Virus record (IMG/VR): IMGVR_UViG_3300008262_000623
Span: 1 to 20,284 of that record
Direction: 5' to 3' (one strand)
Length of the DNA stretch: 20,284 nt
From: a virus
Shown here in pieces: positions 9,171-15,272 of this stretch. The position numbers were made by a program, and so were the translations under genes. Under the pieces are notes generated by a model. That model was not told the origin of the DNA. It saw only the letters and a list, made by a program, of their open reading frames with translations, and ran no database searches. Position 1 is the stretch's first letter. The number at the start of each line of letters is the position of its first letter.

Positions 9171-9419
9171 TTATTTTATACCAAAAGGTTTCAATGCTTG
9201 TTGAAAAATGGGGTGCATATTAGAATCGGAGTTTTTCGCCTCTAATTTTTTTTTCTTATCTAAGAATTGCGCCCAAAGTTTTAAGAGTGTTTTATTATCT
9301 TCTCCGAATTCCATATCGAGTATTCTCAGCGCGTCCATTGCTGATTCGATATCCGATATATCTACGCAATTACTTACTTTCAAGTATGGGTTGTTTTTGA
9401 TTTTTTCCGTGAGTGTCAT
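9171..9419 (-). CDS. Hypothetical helical protein, 82 residues; first gene after the 9.4-kb promoter
   Basis: Starts MTLTEKIKNNPYLKVSNC and continues with an acidic helix (DISDIESAMDALRILD) and a Lys-rich helix (LDKKKKLEAKNSD). No family recognised. It is the first gene after a convincing minus-strand promoter and operator (9442-9468), so it heads the annealing/exonuclease/replication transcript. Promoter-proximal small genes in phages are often regulators or host-takeover proteins, but there is no direct evidence here. Confidence 0.65.
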   Translation of the reverse strand: MTLTEKIKNNPYLKVSNCVDISDIESAMDALRILDMEFGEDNKTLLKLWAQFLDKKKKLEAKNSDSNMHPIFQQALKPFGIK

Positions 9420-9560: not shown

Positions 9561-10859
9561 TTAAACGTATGAGTATTTGCCGTAATTCGGCAACAACTCA
9601 AAGAACATTCGCATCATAATCATATCAGCGTAGTCGGGAGATAGGCCGTGCATCCGTTGAATTTCATCTTTACTGGTGACCGTCAACTTGCTATCGCCGT
9701 CAGGGTTTTTACGGCGAATCATATCGAGTTCCTTGACGATCGTTTCCTTGTATTCGCTTGGGAATATCACACGACCGAATTCGATGAACTCTGCGAGTTT
9801 AAAATAACACTCCGCTTTGAGATTGACAAACCTCTCCGGGTGCGATGCTTTGGATCCATTGCGGAAACCTCGCGTTCCTTTCACTATGTCGCAGACACCT
9901 CCTCCGACACCGTCCTCATCGATGATGATATTGCCTAACTTGACGTATTTGAGATTTGCAAGGTTCTTAATTGCCTCGGCAACTTCGGTCACACGCTTTC
10001 GGCGTAACTCGATGACTTGAATAAGTGACAACCCTCGCCACAATCCAATGACCGACCTATCCTTTCCGAGTCGGGCAATGTCGGCGGTGATAAACAACTC
10101 GCCAGTACCGTCAGGTTCACGAAAGCATCGGAGCACATCATCGGTGTTAAATATGGCGTCGTTTGAATCATCAAAGTTCCAATCGCCATCGAGCAACCTC
10201 TTGCGGTCAACCTCAGGCAATTTTGAGAGGGTTTCGATGTATGACGGCGGTAGGTGTGGGTTGTCGATAGCACGCGCTTGAATAAAGGCCATATAAGGAG
10301 GCAACTCCCCGGTCGTCCAAGGCGAATAAAACTCGTTATACAACCAACCTTTTGACGGGTTGCAAGTGAGGAGTCCTTTCGGTGCGAGATTGTACTCATT
10401 CAATTTGAACCTGACGCGACTGCGAACTATATCAACCGCTTTCTTTGATACCTGAGAACACTCGTCGATGTAGAAATCAGTGACCTCAAGCGATCCAAGT
10501 GAGTCGAAATTCGCATCGGACGGATATGCGAACAAGTCCTTTAGCAGAATCTCGCTCCCATTTGCGAACTGGATGATGTTTGATTGAGCATTGAATTGAT
10601 AGTGTTTGTTGGCAACAAGGCCAAACATTCCCGCGACCTCGAAAAACGTCTTTAAAGTAGTCTTTTTAAGCGTATCGAGTTTAGAGCGACCTATGAGTCC
10701 CCGCGTGCCTTTATATTTCAACCTCCGTTGTATTTGCCAAGCGCAACCGATGAACGATTTCGACCCCCCCGCACCGCCTCCGAAGAGCACAAGTTCAAAA
10801 GGCGAGTCGGTCGCCAATGCTTTCAAACATTCGATTTGCTTGGGGAGAAACTCAATCAT
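9561..10859 (-). CDS. terL: Large terminase subunit
   Basis: 432 residues from ATG 10859, chosen over an in-frame TTG at 10871 because it forms an ATGA overlap with the upstream stop. The packaging ATPase shows a Walker-A-like GGGAGGSKS (27-35), Walker B DFYIDE (128-133) and motif III LLTCNPS (163-169). The RNase-H-like nuclease half has FITADIARLGKD (Asp260), IIIDEDGVGGG (Asp314, Asp316) and LSPDYADM (Asp409, Asp412). It pumps DNA into the prohead and cuts concatemers. Unusually it is read with the early genes, opposite to the portal and the other small-terminase candidate. Confidence 0.95.
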   Translation of the reverse strand: MIEFLPKQIECLKALATDSPFELVLFGGGAGGSKSFIGCAWQIQRRLKYKGTRGLIGRSKLDTLKKTTLKTFFEVAGMFGLVANKHYQFNAQSNIIQFANGSEILLKDLFAYPSDANFDSLGSLEVTDFYIDECSQVSKKAVDIVRSRVRFKLNEYNLAPKGLLTCNPSKGWLYNEFYSPWTTGELPPYMAFIQARAIDNPHLPPSYIETLSKLPEVDRKRLLDGDWNFDDSNDAIFNTDDVLRCFREPDGTGELFITADIARLGKDRSVIGLWRGLSLIQVIELRRKRVTEVAEAIKNLANLKYVKLGNIIIDEDGVGGGVCDIVKGTRGFRNGSKASHPERFVNLKAECYFKLAEFIEFGRVIFPSEYKETIVKELDMIRRKNPDGDSKLTVTSKDEIQRMHGLSPDYADMIMMRMFFELLPNYGKYSYV

Positions 10860-11176
10860 CGGATAAACCAACTATTTTCTTTCAACTTTGTCAATTGACG
10901 GATATACTTGTTGTGACTGACCCCGATGACCGAGGAGATATGACTTGCGATATTGATTCCCTCCGAATGGAGTCGCATCAATTCCGATGTTGCCTTGTCA
11001 ACTGAAATCATCCGCTGACTGGCGTACTTGAGGAGGCGTTCGTGATGCAAGTCTTGAATGAGTTGAGAGTTGAGAGCGTGCTCTTTTTTGCTCATCTTAG
11101 GCGGTTCAAGATTCATCAACTCCCTCTCGGTCATCGCATCATCTTTGACATCAATTAGGTTGTCGAACTTAGGCAT
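10856..11176 (-). CDS. Small HTH-like protein upstream of terL; possible small terminase
   Basis: 106 residues, hydrophilic and helical. Residues about 59-96 (SVDKATSELMRLHSEGINIA, then IGVSHNKYIRQL) read like a helix-turn-helix. The stop overlaps the terL start as ATGA, the place where a small terminase subunit is normally encoded. A second small-terminase candidate lies at 14186 on the other strand, and that one has a clearer family signature. Alternatives are a transcription regulator or terminase accessory. Confidence 0.5.
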   Translation of the reverse strand: MPKFDNLIDVKDDAMTERELMNLEPPKMSKKEHALNSQLIQDLHHERLLKYASQRMISVDKATSELMRLHSEGINIASHISSVIGVSHNKYIRQLTKLKENSWFIR

Positions 11177-12606: not shown

Positions 12607-13119
12607 TTGACAACTTGCGACATAAATATCGAATTGAGTAAACACCTCCCCATATGGCAACGCTTCGCAAGCGGGTTGATGCGTGACCGGGTTAAGGGCG
12701 ATGACCTACTTTCGGAAACGATGCTCAAGATATTGGAGAACCAAGGCGACAAGTTGTGTCAACTGGCGAGTGATGGCGGTCTATTCGCATACGTCAACCG
12801 CTCACTTTATTTGATGGCAATCGACAAGTCAAGTCGATACGGTACAAAATATCGCTCATTTGAAACAAGATGGGTCACTGAATCAACCGCGCACGAAAAG
12901 GAACGTGATGCGCCTTGGTTGGGTAGCAGACTCGACAACGAATATCTCGACGCATATATATCGATGATGCCCGAACTCGACGCAACAATGCTCCGACTTT
13001 ATATGATGACCGATTTCAGTTATCAAAAGTGCTCGGACGAAACGGGAATCGAGGTCAAGACCCTATATAAGTTAGTGGAGAAAGCAATTAACAAAATCAA
13101 ACGCAATGTTCAATTTTAA
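12607..13119 (+). CDS. Phage RNA polymerase sigma-like factor
   Basis: 170 residues with an ECF-like two-part layout. Residues ~16-80 resemble sigma region 2 (WQRFASGLMRDRVKGDDLLS, ETMLKILEN, AYVNRSLYLMAIDKSSR), and ~120-165 resemble region 4 (MPELDATMLRLYMMTDFSYQ, ETGIEVKTLYKLVEKAINKI). The start is the TTG at 12607 or a second TTG at 12634; no ATG precedes region 2. As first gene of the plus block it could redirect host RNA polymerase to phage late promoters. Divergence from the HTH regulator suggests control by the shared operator. Confidence 0.65.
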   Translation: MTTCDINIELSKHLPIWQRFASGLMRDRVKGDDLLSETMLKILENQGDKLCQLASDGGLFAYVNRSLYLMAIDKSSRYGTKYRSFETRWVTESTAHEKERDAPWLGSRLDNEYLDAYISMMPELDATMLRLYMMTDFSYQKCSDETGIEVKTLYKLVEKAINKIKRNVQF

Positions 13120-14185: not shown

Positions 14186-14524
14186 ATGAACCACCAAAAC
14201 CCGACATTAAAAAAGGCAATGGTCGAAGCGATGAAAAAATCGCTCGGCATTGTCTCGACCGCTTGCGCCGAGGTAGGTATCAATCGGAGCACTCACTATG
14301 ACTGGTTGAGAACCGATGAGGAGTACAAGCAAGAGATTGAGCACATTGACGAATCAGTCATCGATTTCGCTGAGTCTAAGTTGCATAAGTTGATTGACGG
14401 CGGCGATGTCGCTTCGACAATCTTCTATCTCAAGACCAAGGGCAAAAAACGCGGGTTCGTGGAACGCACCGAATTGACGGGCAACGAGGGTCAACCTATC
14501 ATTCATATTGCCGCGAACCTATGA
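14186..14524 (+). CDS. Small terminase-like protein (phBC6A51-type HTH)
   Basis: 112 residues. AMKKSLGIVSTACAEVGINR (35-codon N-terminal region) followed by STHYDWLRTDEEYKQEIEHI is the homeodomain-like HTH of the phBC6A51 group. DFAESKLHKLIDGGDVAS, then TIFYLKTKGKKRGFVERTEL is the conserved continuation found in phage small terminase candidates. It would recognise the packaging site and recruit terL. terL is encoded about 3.3 kb away on the opposite strand. Stop overlaps the next start (ATGA). Confidence 0.7.
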   Translation: MNHQNPTLKKAMVEAMKKSLGIVSTACAEVGINRSTHYDWLRTDEEYKQEIEHIDESVIDFAESKLHKLIDGGDVASTIFYLKTKGKKRGFVERTELTGNEGQPIIHIAANL

Positions 14525-15105
14525 AGATAAACGTTCCTCAAAATTACAACGACATCACGCTCGGCGAGTTCGTGCGATATCACGCGCTCAAGTCCGATGT
14601 CGAGAGGGTGATGCTCATCACTGGCGCATCTAAAAAGACCGTTGAGTCGTGGCAAGCATCAACCATTGAGACAATCGTGAACGAATACTCGACCGCTCTC
14701 GACAACGGAACTCCCCGACTCGATTACGTTGTCAAGCGCGATACCGACCTCGGATTCGTTCCTGACATCGACGCGCTATCACTCCGCGAACACATCGACC
14801 TTGACACATACGCCCAAGCGATTTGGAAAGATAAAGAACAACTCGACTATTCGCATCTCCCGAACTTAATGGCGGTGCTTTACCGACCGATAAAAAGTCG
14901 GTTCGGCAAATACTACGAACTCGAAACATACGACGTTGACCGGATCAAGTACTACATCGAATCAGTCAAGTCACTAACAATGGCGCAAGTTCACGGAGTG
15001 TTGGTTTTTTTTTCGACTATTCTAAGCGAATTGGTACAAAGTTCAGTTCACTTTTTGGAGGAGGAGACGAAGATGATGAGGAGTCAATTGGAGGCAATGA
15101 TATGA
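14521..15105 (+). CDS. Tail assembly chaperone, first ORF (gpG-like)
   Basis: 194 residues, ATGA overlap with the small-terminase-like gene. ITLGEFVRYHAL, SLREHIDLDTYAQ, LPNLMAVLYRPI and AQVHGVLVFFSTILSELVQ match the tail chaperone family I know from Bacteroidota phages, equivalent in role to lambda gpG. It would bind the tape measure protein and tube subunits during tail assembly. A run of nine T (15005-15013) lies in the GVLVFF codons, and slipping back one base there fuses the protein to the next ORF, giving a 250-residue GT-like product. The tape measure gene is not seen next to it. Confidence 0.65.
   Translation: MKINVPQNYNDITLGEFVRYHALKSDVERVMLITGASKKTVESWQASTIETIVNEYSTALDNGTPRLDYVVKRDTDLGFVPDIDALSLREHIDLDTYAQAIWKDKEQLDYSHLPNLMAVLYRPIKSRFGKYYELETYDVDRIKYYIESVKSLTMAQVHGVLVFFSTILSELVQSSVHFLEEETKMMRSQLEAMI
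15005..15013 (+). promoter_or_regulatory. Poly-T slippery site, candidate -1 programmed frameshift
   Basis: Nine consecutive T read as gtt ttt ttt tcg in the zero frame, giving T TTT TTT (15006-15012) with both tRNAs able to re-pair after a -1 slip. The -1 frame is open from 15012 through an acidic Gly-rich linker (FGGGDEDDEESIGGND) straight into the ORF at 15102, ending at TGA 15270-15272. Confidence 0.6.
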
Positions 15106-15272
15106 ACCGATGGGGATGGATGAACATCATCGAGACACTTGCCGACCGAGATATCACGAAATTCGATGCGGTGCTCAACCGACCAGTGTATGAGGTGATG
15201 ACGCACCTGAGTTATTTGAGAGACTATAACGACACACAACGACAACGTTTTCACACGGTCAAATTGATGTGA
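15102..15272 (+). CDS. Tail assembly chaperone, second ORF (T-like domain)
   Basis: 56 residues from an ATGA-overlap ATG, beginning MNRWGWMNIIETLADRDITK and continuing FDAVLNRPVYEVMTHLSYLR. The WGW...I..LA..DI.K.D.V......V...L.YL pattern is what I associate with the second tail chaperone component in Bacteroidota siphophages. It can be made alone or, by the -1 slip at 15005-15013, as the C-terminal part of a fusion. The next gene starts at GTG in a GTGA overlap with its stop. Confidence 0.65.
   Translation: MNRWGWMNIIETLADRDITKFDAVLNRPVYEVMTHLSYLRDYNDTQRQRFHTVKLM

Follow-up and report, generated by a model that had tools for sequence, protein, structure and literature searches.

The phage locus described here very probably encodes a G/GT-type fusion, in which a run of nine T near the end of the reading frame for a G-like domain leads, through a –1 shift, into a T-like domain, and the comparisons across its sequence family make it probable that this fusion is produced mainly via RNA polymerase slippage. 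In the proposed scheme most transcripts would be read in frame 0 to give a 194-aa G-like protein, while a fraction, recoded at the T9 run, would give a 250-aa fusion made up of the G part, a short linker and the T-like domain. The main route that we infer is slippage of the host RNA polymerase with insertion: it would add a U (U10) when the RNA-DNA hybrid sits wholly inside the U9 run, the ribosome then reading the transcript normally; –1 ribosomal slippage on U UUU UUU could contribute too.

The run and its two frames in the window

The window analyzed is the full 20,284-base IMG/VR record IMGVR_UViG_3300008262_000623. An earlier note on this DNA had proposed a programmed –1 slip at T TTT TTT that joins two neighbouring chaperone ORFs, and its coordinates and its reading of the run, the heptamer and the –1 frame proved correct when the sequence was read again. 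The features of the locus are as follows.

14521..15105, + strand: ORF1, putative G-like tail assembly chaperone, frame 0, 194 aa
15005..15013, + strand: T9 homopolymer, the proposed slippage site, with nine or ten T in 180/180 relatives
15006..15012, + strand: T TTT TTT heptamer in X XXY YYZ phase
15012..15272, + strand: –1 frame extension, linker and then T-like domain, 86 codons and stop
15014..15105, + strand: dual-coding overlap of frame 0 and frame –1, with suppressed divergence at 4-fold sites
15102..15272, + strand: ORF2, T-like core with its own ATG overlapping the ORF1 stop, 56 aa
15269..17449, + strand: next gene, tail-terminator-like N-terminal domain and long fibre-like part

In ORF1 the run is read as GTT TTT TTT TCG (V-F-F-S), extending from the second base of the first of these codons to the first base of the last, and the only X XXY YYZ heptamer that lies in phase within T9 is that at 15006–15012. 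When base 15012 is read twice, the frame passes into the linker FDYSKRIGTKFSSLFGGGDEDDEESIGGND, then into MNRWGWM..., and reaches a stop at 15270–15272; positions 14521–15012 and the –1 extension together encode the 250-aa G-T fusion. The ATG of ORF2 at 15102 is codon 31 of the 86-codon –1 frame, and it overlaps the ORF1 stop as ATGA.

The downstream end of the locus has a peculiarity of its own. Relative to L001 and L002, the window is without 95 bp at 15247/15248, a length that is not a multiple of three and that could reflect either a real mutation or an assembly artefact. The deletion takes the end of ORF2, whose terminal residues in the window (FHTVKLM) are atypical, as well as ~25 codons from the beginning of the gene that follows (MLTKTSYNIVIERFKAFADGH...), the corresponding ~25 residues being absent in comparison with L001–L003. 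In the window, therefore, neither the ORF2 end nor the beginning of the following gene has its usual form.

Conservation and dual coding across the family

The relatives span about 20–94% identity and come from phage isolates, a prophage of a cultured strain and metagenomes. They were gathered with seed peptides that leave the run length free, and the seed that covers FF accepts TTT or TTC and constrains the following residue to Y, S or W; nine highly diverse ORF1 proteins gave a profile too divergent for use as a scan seed. The run is unchanged in the five nearest relatives (proteins 91–94% identical), and both gp38 of the isolate Nonlabens phage P12024S (~26% identity) and L013 (32% identity) carry T9 at the codons where the window has it, followed by the same –1 frame domain. 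Further scans added ~170 loci. For the whole set, at least nine T were present in 189/189 loci that reach the site, and the T-domain profile was matched in the –1 frame in 184/184 uncut loci. Among 180 relatives that reach the site, a count from which most duplicate records were removed (a few are still counted twice) and two single-ORF relatives were set aside, 175 have T9 and five have T10. This is a diverse sample, in that 46 of the first 93 complete loci are <70% identical to one another. Several phages of the T9 chaperone family were found in marine Flavobacteriaceae, and the T9 site is also carried by a prophage of the cultured Flagellimonas onchidii XY-359 and by another Flavobacteriaceae genome (L195). 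Two metagenome-assembled contigs binned as Euryarchaeota and Pseudooceanicola (L188 and L189) contain the same phage family with T9 intact, and are probably misbinned viral contigs.

The earlier note had named relatives without a slippery run as one observation that would count against it. There is no such genome among the 180 relatives, the exact site of the slip is conserved across this large family, and every relative examined keeps the run together with both frames. Because run and frames recur in this way, chance is excluded as their origin.

Both frames bear marks of selection at the protein level, as judged from 4-fold sites and conserved motifs. Over 104 pairs, the 4-fold sites of frame 0 were divergent at 36% upstream of the run and at 14% in the overlap. 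Between the window and L001 there are 51 differences in 483 bases upstream and none in the 93 bases of overlap, a result that has p ~3e-5 at the upstream rate. Conserved motifs are present in both frames: the tail of frame 0 retains its own conserved residues, and in the –1 frame conservation includes the linker ahead of the ATG. In addition, the stretch from the run to the W-x-W core is free of ATG, GTG and TTG in 147/160 complete T frames (a TTG that may arise where the run ends is disregarded), so that nearly all relatives would reach the T domain by recoding. Comparison across the family shows that the run, the two frames and the fusion architecture are under selection.

A fusion of the two parts may also occur in simpler form. 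Ten predicted viral proteins of 226–267 aa were hits for the ORF1 model as well as for the T-domain model, the strongest of them significantly in both searches, which suggests that the G-T fusion also exists as one ORF. The AlphaFold model of ORF1 has a mean pLDDT of 84, the T-domain model (ma8eb99ef44c6) has a low mean pLDDT of 69, and the alignments behind these models were built without P12024S. Two Flavobacteriaceae genomes (L198 and L199), whose neighbouring genes differ from those of the window, have single-ORF relatives of 284–295 codons with a T-like C-terminus, in which hhalign gives the T part no more than a suggestive similarity (E about 0.1). Like the 226–267-aa viral proteins, they share with the window an ORF1-related G-like part followed by a C-terminal T-like part. 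Since they have neither T9 nor a second frame, this element may make its G and T parts 1:1.

Polymerase or ribosome at the run

RNA polymerase slippage and –1 ribosomal frameshifting yield an identical 250-aa protein. The run is not shorter than nine T in any relative, though seven would be enough for a ribosomal –1 shift. Where the phase is the common one, the T at either end of the run can be explained by the neighbouring codons, V, L or I (xTT) before the run and Y, W, C or S (Txx) after it, and hence only those lineages in which the run has changed phase argue directly for length. There are about five separate lineages with changed phase and flanking residues, and all still have a run of 9–10:

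L066: AGT TTT TTT TTT CGT
L039: ATT TTT TTT TTG TTT
L041/L075/L089 clade, L041 and L091: CTT TTT TTT TTC
L041/L075/L089 clade, L089: GTT TTT TTT TTG
L041/L075/L089 clade, L075: GTC TTT TTT TTT CTG
L139 and L169: CGG TTT TTT TTT G
L196: GGT TTT TTT TTG

In these lineages the V before the run has become S, G, R or F and the Y after it F, L, V or A, with some flanking T lost and others regained. Elsewhere in the same genomes 12% of A/T runs of at least seven reach nine; five independent retentions by chance would have a probability of ~2e-5, which is a rough guide that treats the lineages as independent.

The leading alternative is programmed –1 ribosomal frameshifting, in which two tRNA-Phe would slip in tandem on U UUU UUU, and we regard it as a serious but less probable possibility. 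Each phase of T9 includes an in-phase T TTT TTN, so ribosomes could slip at all of them. Such a heptamer is found in 95/95 loci of the first set, the last in the run being T TTT TTT in 91, T TTT TTC in two and T TTT TTG in two, and ribosomal shifting is the established mechanism for G/GT, that of lambda included, in which the T-bearing form is a minority product (PMC5009743). However, a seven-nucleotide site leaves unexplained why 180 relatives have at least nine T, including the lineages that lost and regained flanking T. Stimulators, which often but not always assist a ribosomal shift, were also sought and rejected. RNA structure, upstream or downstream of the run, did not rise above background in 46 representatives (downstream mean z –0.09 versus –0.12 in the control, from simple folding energies that are blind to pseudoknots), and Shine-Dalgarno-like 4-mers were present in only 6/46, with 0/46 in the control.

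The strict length of the run, irrespective of phase and flanks, and the lack of an RNA stimulator in these 46 representatives lead us to favour RNA polymerase slippage. Of the programmed –1 shift in the earlier note, then, the exact site stands, whereas the ribosome as the agent of slippage fits the length pattern less well than RNA polymerase does. Published work points the same way: E. coli RNA polymerase already inserts bases at T7 (5% rescue) and T8 (10%), more so as the run lengthens and with a preference for poly(T) (PMC6260861), and slippage with added bases has been reported on runs of nine A or T (PMC5009743). Selection against A/T runs appears at length nine in many bacteria (PMC1088944). 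No depletion of 9-nt A/T runs was seen elsewhere in the present genomes, a point against polymerase slippage, and run depletion is therefore not used as independent evidence for it.

Two other parts of the window touch on this subject. The gene at 12607–13119 (+) may be a phage sigma factor, and P12024S has a gene annotated as Sigma-70 region 2 at a similar place; a sigma factor there would fit transcription by the host RNA polymerase. There is also a second T9 at 9246–9254, which is A9 on the coding strand, in the KKKK codons of an 82-aa ORF (9171–9419, –), and no relatives of this stretch were found among the fetched loci.

Function of the pair and its products

A function as tail chaperone is inferred from the G/GT architecture and from a place in the tail module ahead of the tape measure gene. 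In L187, TerS and TerL are followed by ORF1/T, and then come a tail-terminator-like gene, an HK97-gp10-like gene, two larger genes, the tape measure gene and a protease gene. The tape measure gene (phrog_339, E 8.6e-9) is four genes downstream of ORF1/T, and the protease (PF14550) is followed by a capsid gene recognized by eye. By eye, L191, which comes from the record of one of the window's close relatives, has a similar order and a tape-measure-like ORF downstream. In P12024S, L013 and L187 the TerL gene is upstream on the same strand. The window has its TerL at 9561–10871 (–), ~3.7 kb from ORF1, and a small-terminase-like HTH gene at 14186–14524 (+) where TerL stands in those three. By analogy with lambda gpG/gpGT, the G part would coat the tape measure protein and a few T domains would recruit tail tube subunits.

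That a recoded G/GT-like pair should serve some function other than tail assembly seems improbable to us in view of this architecture and position. What speaks for another function is that the locus has no name in the profile collections: neither ORF1 nor the T domain is named by any Pfam, NCBIfam or PHROGs profile, ORF1 matching phrog_32199 (unknown function) with E 1.3e-6 and the two parts falling in PHROGs into two families, 32199 and 38404, neither of known function. A sequence search of the PDB with the chaperone parts returned nothing informative, and a fold search of the PDB with the ORF1 model nothing significant, the HK97 tail assembly chaperone 2ob9 appearing at E 5.8 and probability 0.06. 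A fold search did match a protein annotated as a tail assembly chaperone, at a weak and not significant E 0.18 with probability 0.69, and this match counts against another function.

The possibility that the locus makes two separate proteins only, in which case ribosomes would reinitiate on ORF2 at the ATGA overlap and the T run would be incidental, is very improbable. In the window a reinitiation event could take place, given that overlap and a GGAGG ahead of the ORF2 ATG, and P12024S ends its frame 0 in TAATG. However, an ATG adjoins the frame-0 stop only in the close clade of the window and in P12024S, and the GGAGG is absent from L002 and L003. An ATG before the W-x-W core occurs in 8/160 complete frames (four sampled members of the window clade, P12024S, L082, L085 and L100), and L054 together with L112, L113 and L115, which are 53–55% identical to it, has no ATG at all in the T frame. 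Most relatives are thus without a start codon for such a protein, and neither the conservation of the linker in the –1 frame nor the constraint on silent sites would be expected of an incidental run. The earlier note had also envisaged a free T-like domain beside the fused one; with 147/160 complete relatives having no ATG, GTG or TTG ahead of the T core, a selected free product finds no support beyond the window's own clade and P12024S.

An error in the homopolymer, with one continuous ORF as the true sequence, is hardly credible: such runs are error-prone and single-ORF G-T relatives do exist in L198 and L199, but the same frame relation is found in ~180 loci from many projects, isolate genomes, the prophage of a cultured strain and L195 among them, and conserved residues are kept in the frame-0 tail.

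Relation to known recoding systems

Few recoding events in phages are as widely conserved as the G/GT shift, which is regarded as ribosomal. Lambda gpG/gpGT and the conserved G-GT frameshift genes of long-tailed phages resemble the locus in a small first ORF with a –1 shift near its end, in a T-like domain that is entered in the –1 frame, and in a tail module where the tape measure gene comes later. The locus differs from them in having no detectable sequence relation and in standing right after the terminase genes, four genes ahead of the tape measure gene (L187) rather than directly before it, and it has an invariant T9/T10 where they have a seven-nucleotide site that varies between phages. 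Genes with A9/T9 transcriptional slippage (Shigella mxiE and spa13, Thermus thermophilus dnaX and some insertion sequence elements) resemble it in a conserved homopolymer of nine A or T and in a second product from another frame; in the present locus, slippage is a proposal drawn from sequence conservation.

Among sequenced phages, the Nonlabens phages P12024S and P12024L (gp38/gp39 in P12024S numbering) have the homologous ORF1. P12024S differs from the window in having TAATG and not ATGA, and in a TerL gene directly upstream where the window has its own elsewhere on the minus strand. Its gp38 and gp39 (L006 6001–6695) were deposited as two unlinked hypothetical proteins, and the T9 fusion is not annotated. 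In Flavobacterium phage 6H (L200 10048–10927, –), AGN89393 shifts frame twice within the G domain, possibly through sequencing error or else through recoding, and its deposited 191-aa product is probably truncated; 6H was for this reason dropped as an outgroup.

The literature covered, which leaves out most subscription journals, neither reports transcriptional slippage for a tail chaperone nor describes the shift in this family. By its architecture the locus belongs to the G/GT kind, in which the slippage step would be new; if the shift is ribosomal, the locus would be another member of that known kind. With slightly less assurance than for the account of the locus as a whole, we consider it likely that these Flavobacteriaceae phages have replaced the ribosomal G/GT shift by polymerase slippage at T9, so that the G:GT ratio, on which tail assembly depends, would be set during transcription. 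Automated annotation overlooks the fusion, as the unlinked gp38 and gp39 and the two PHROGs illustrate, and the signature of T9 with FRxR...W-x-W is usable to annotate tail chaperones in hundreds of phage contigs. Isolates that carry the T9 locus exist for work on the mechanism. If the proposal is true, phages can solve the problem of G/GT stoichiometry at the RNA polymerase, in the manner of dnaX and insertion sequences.
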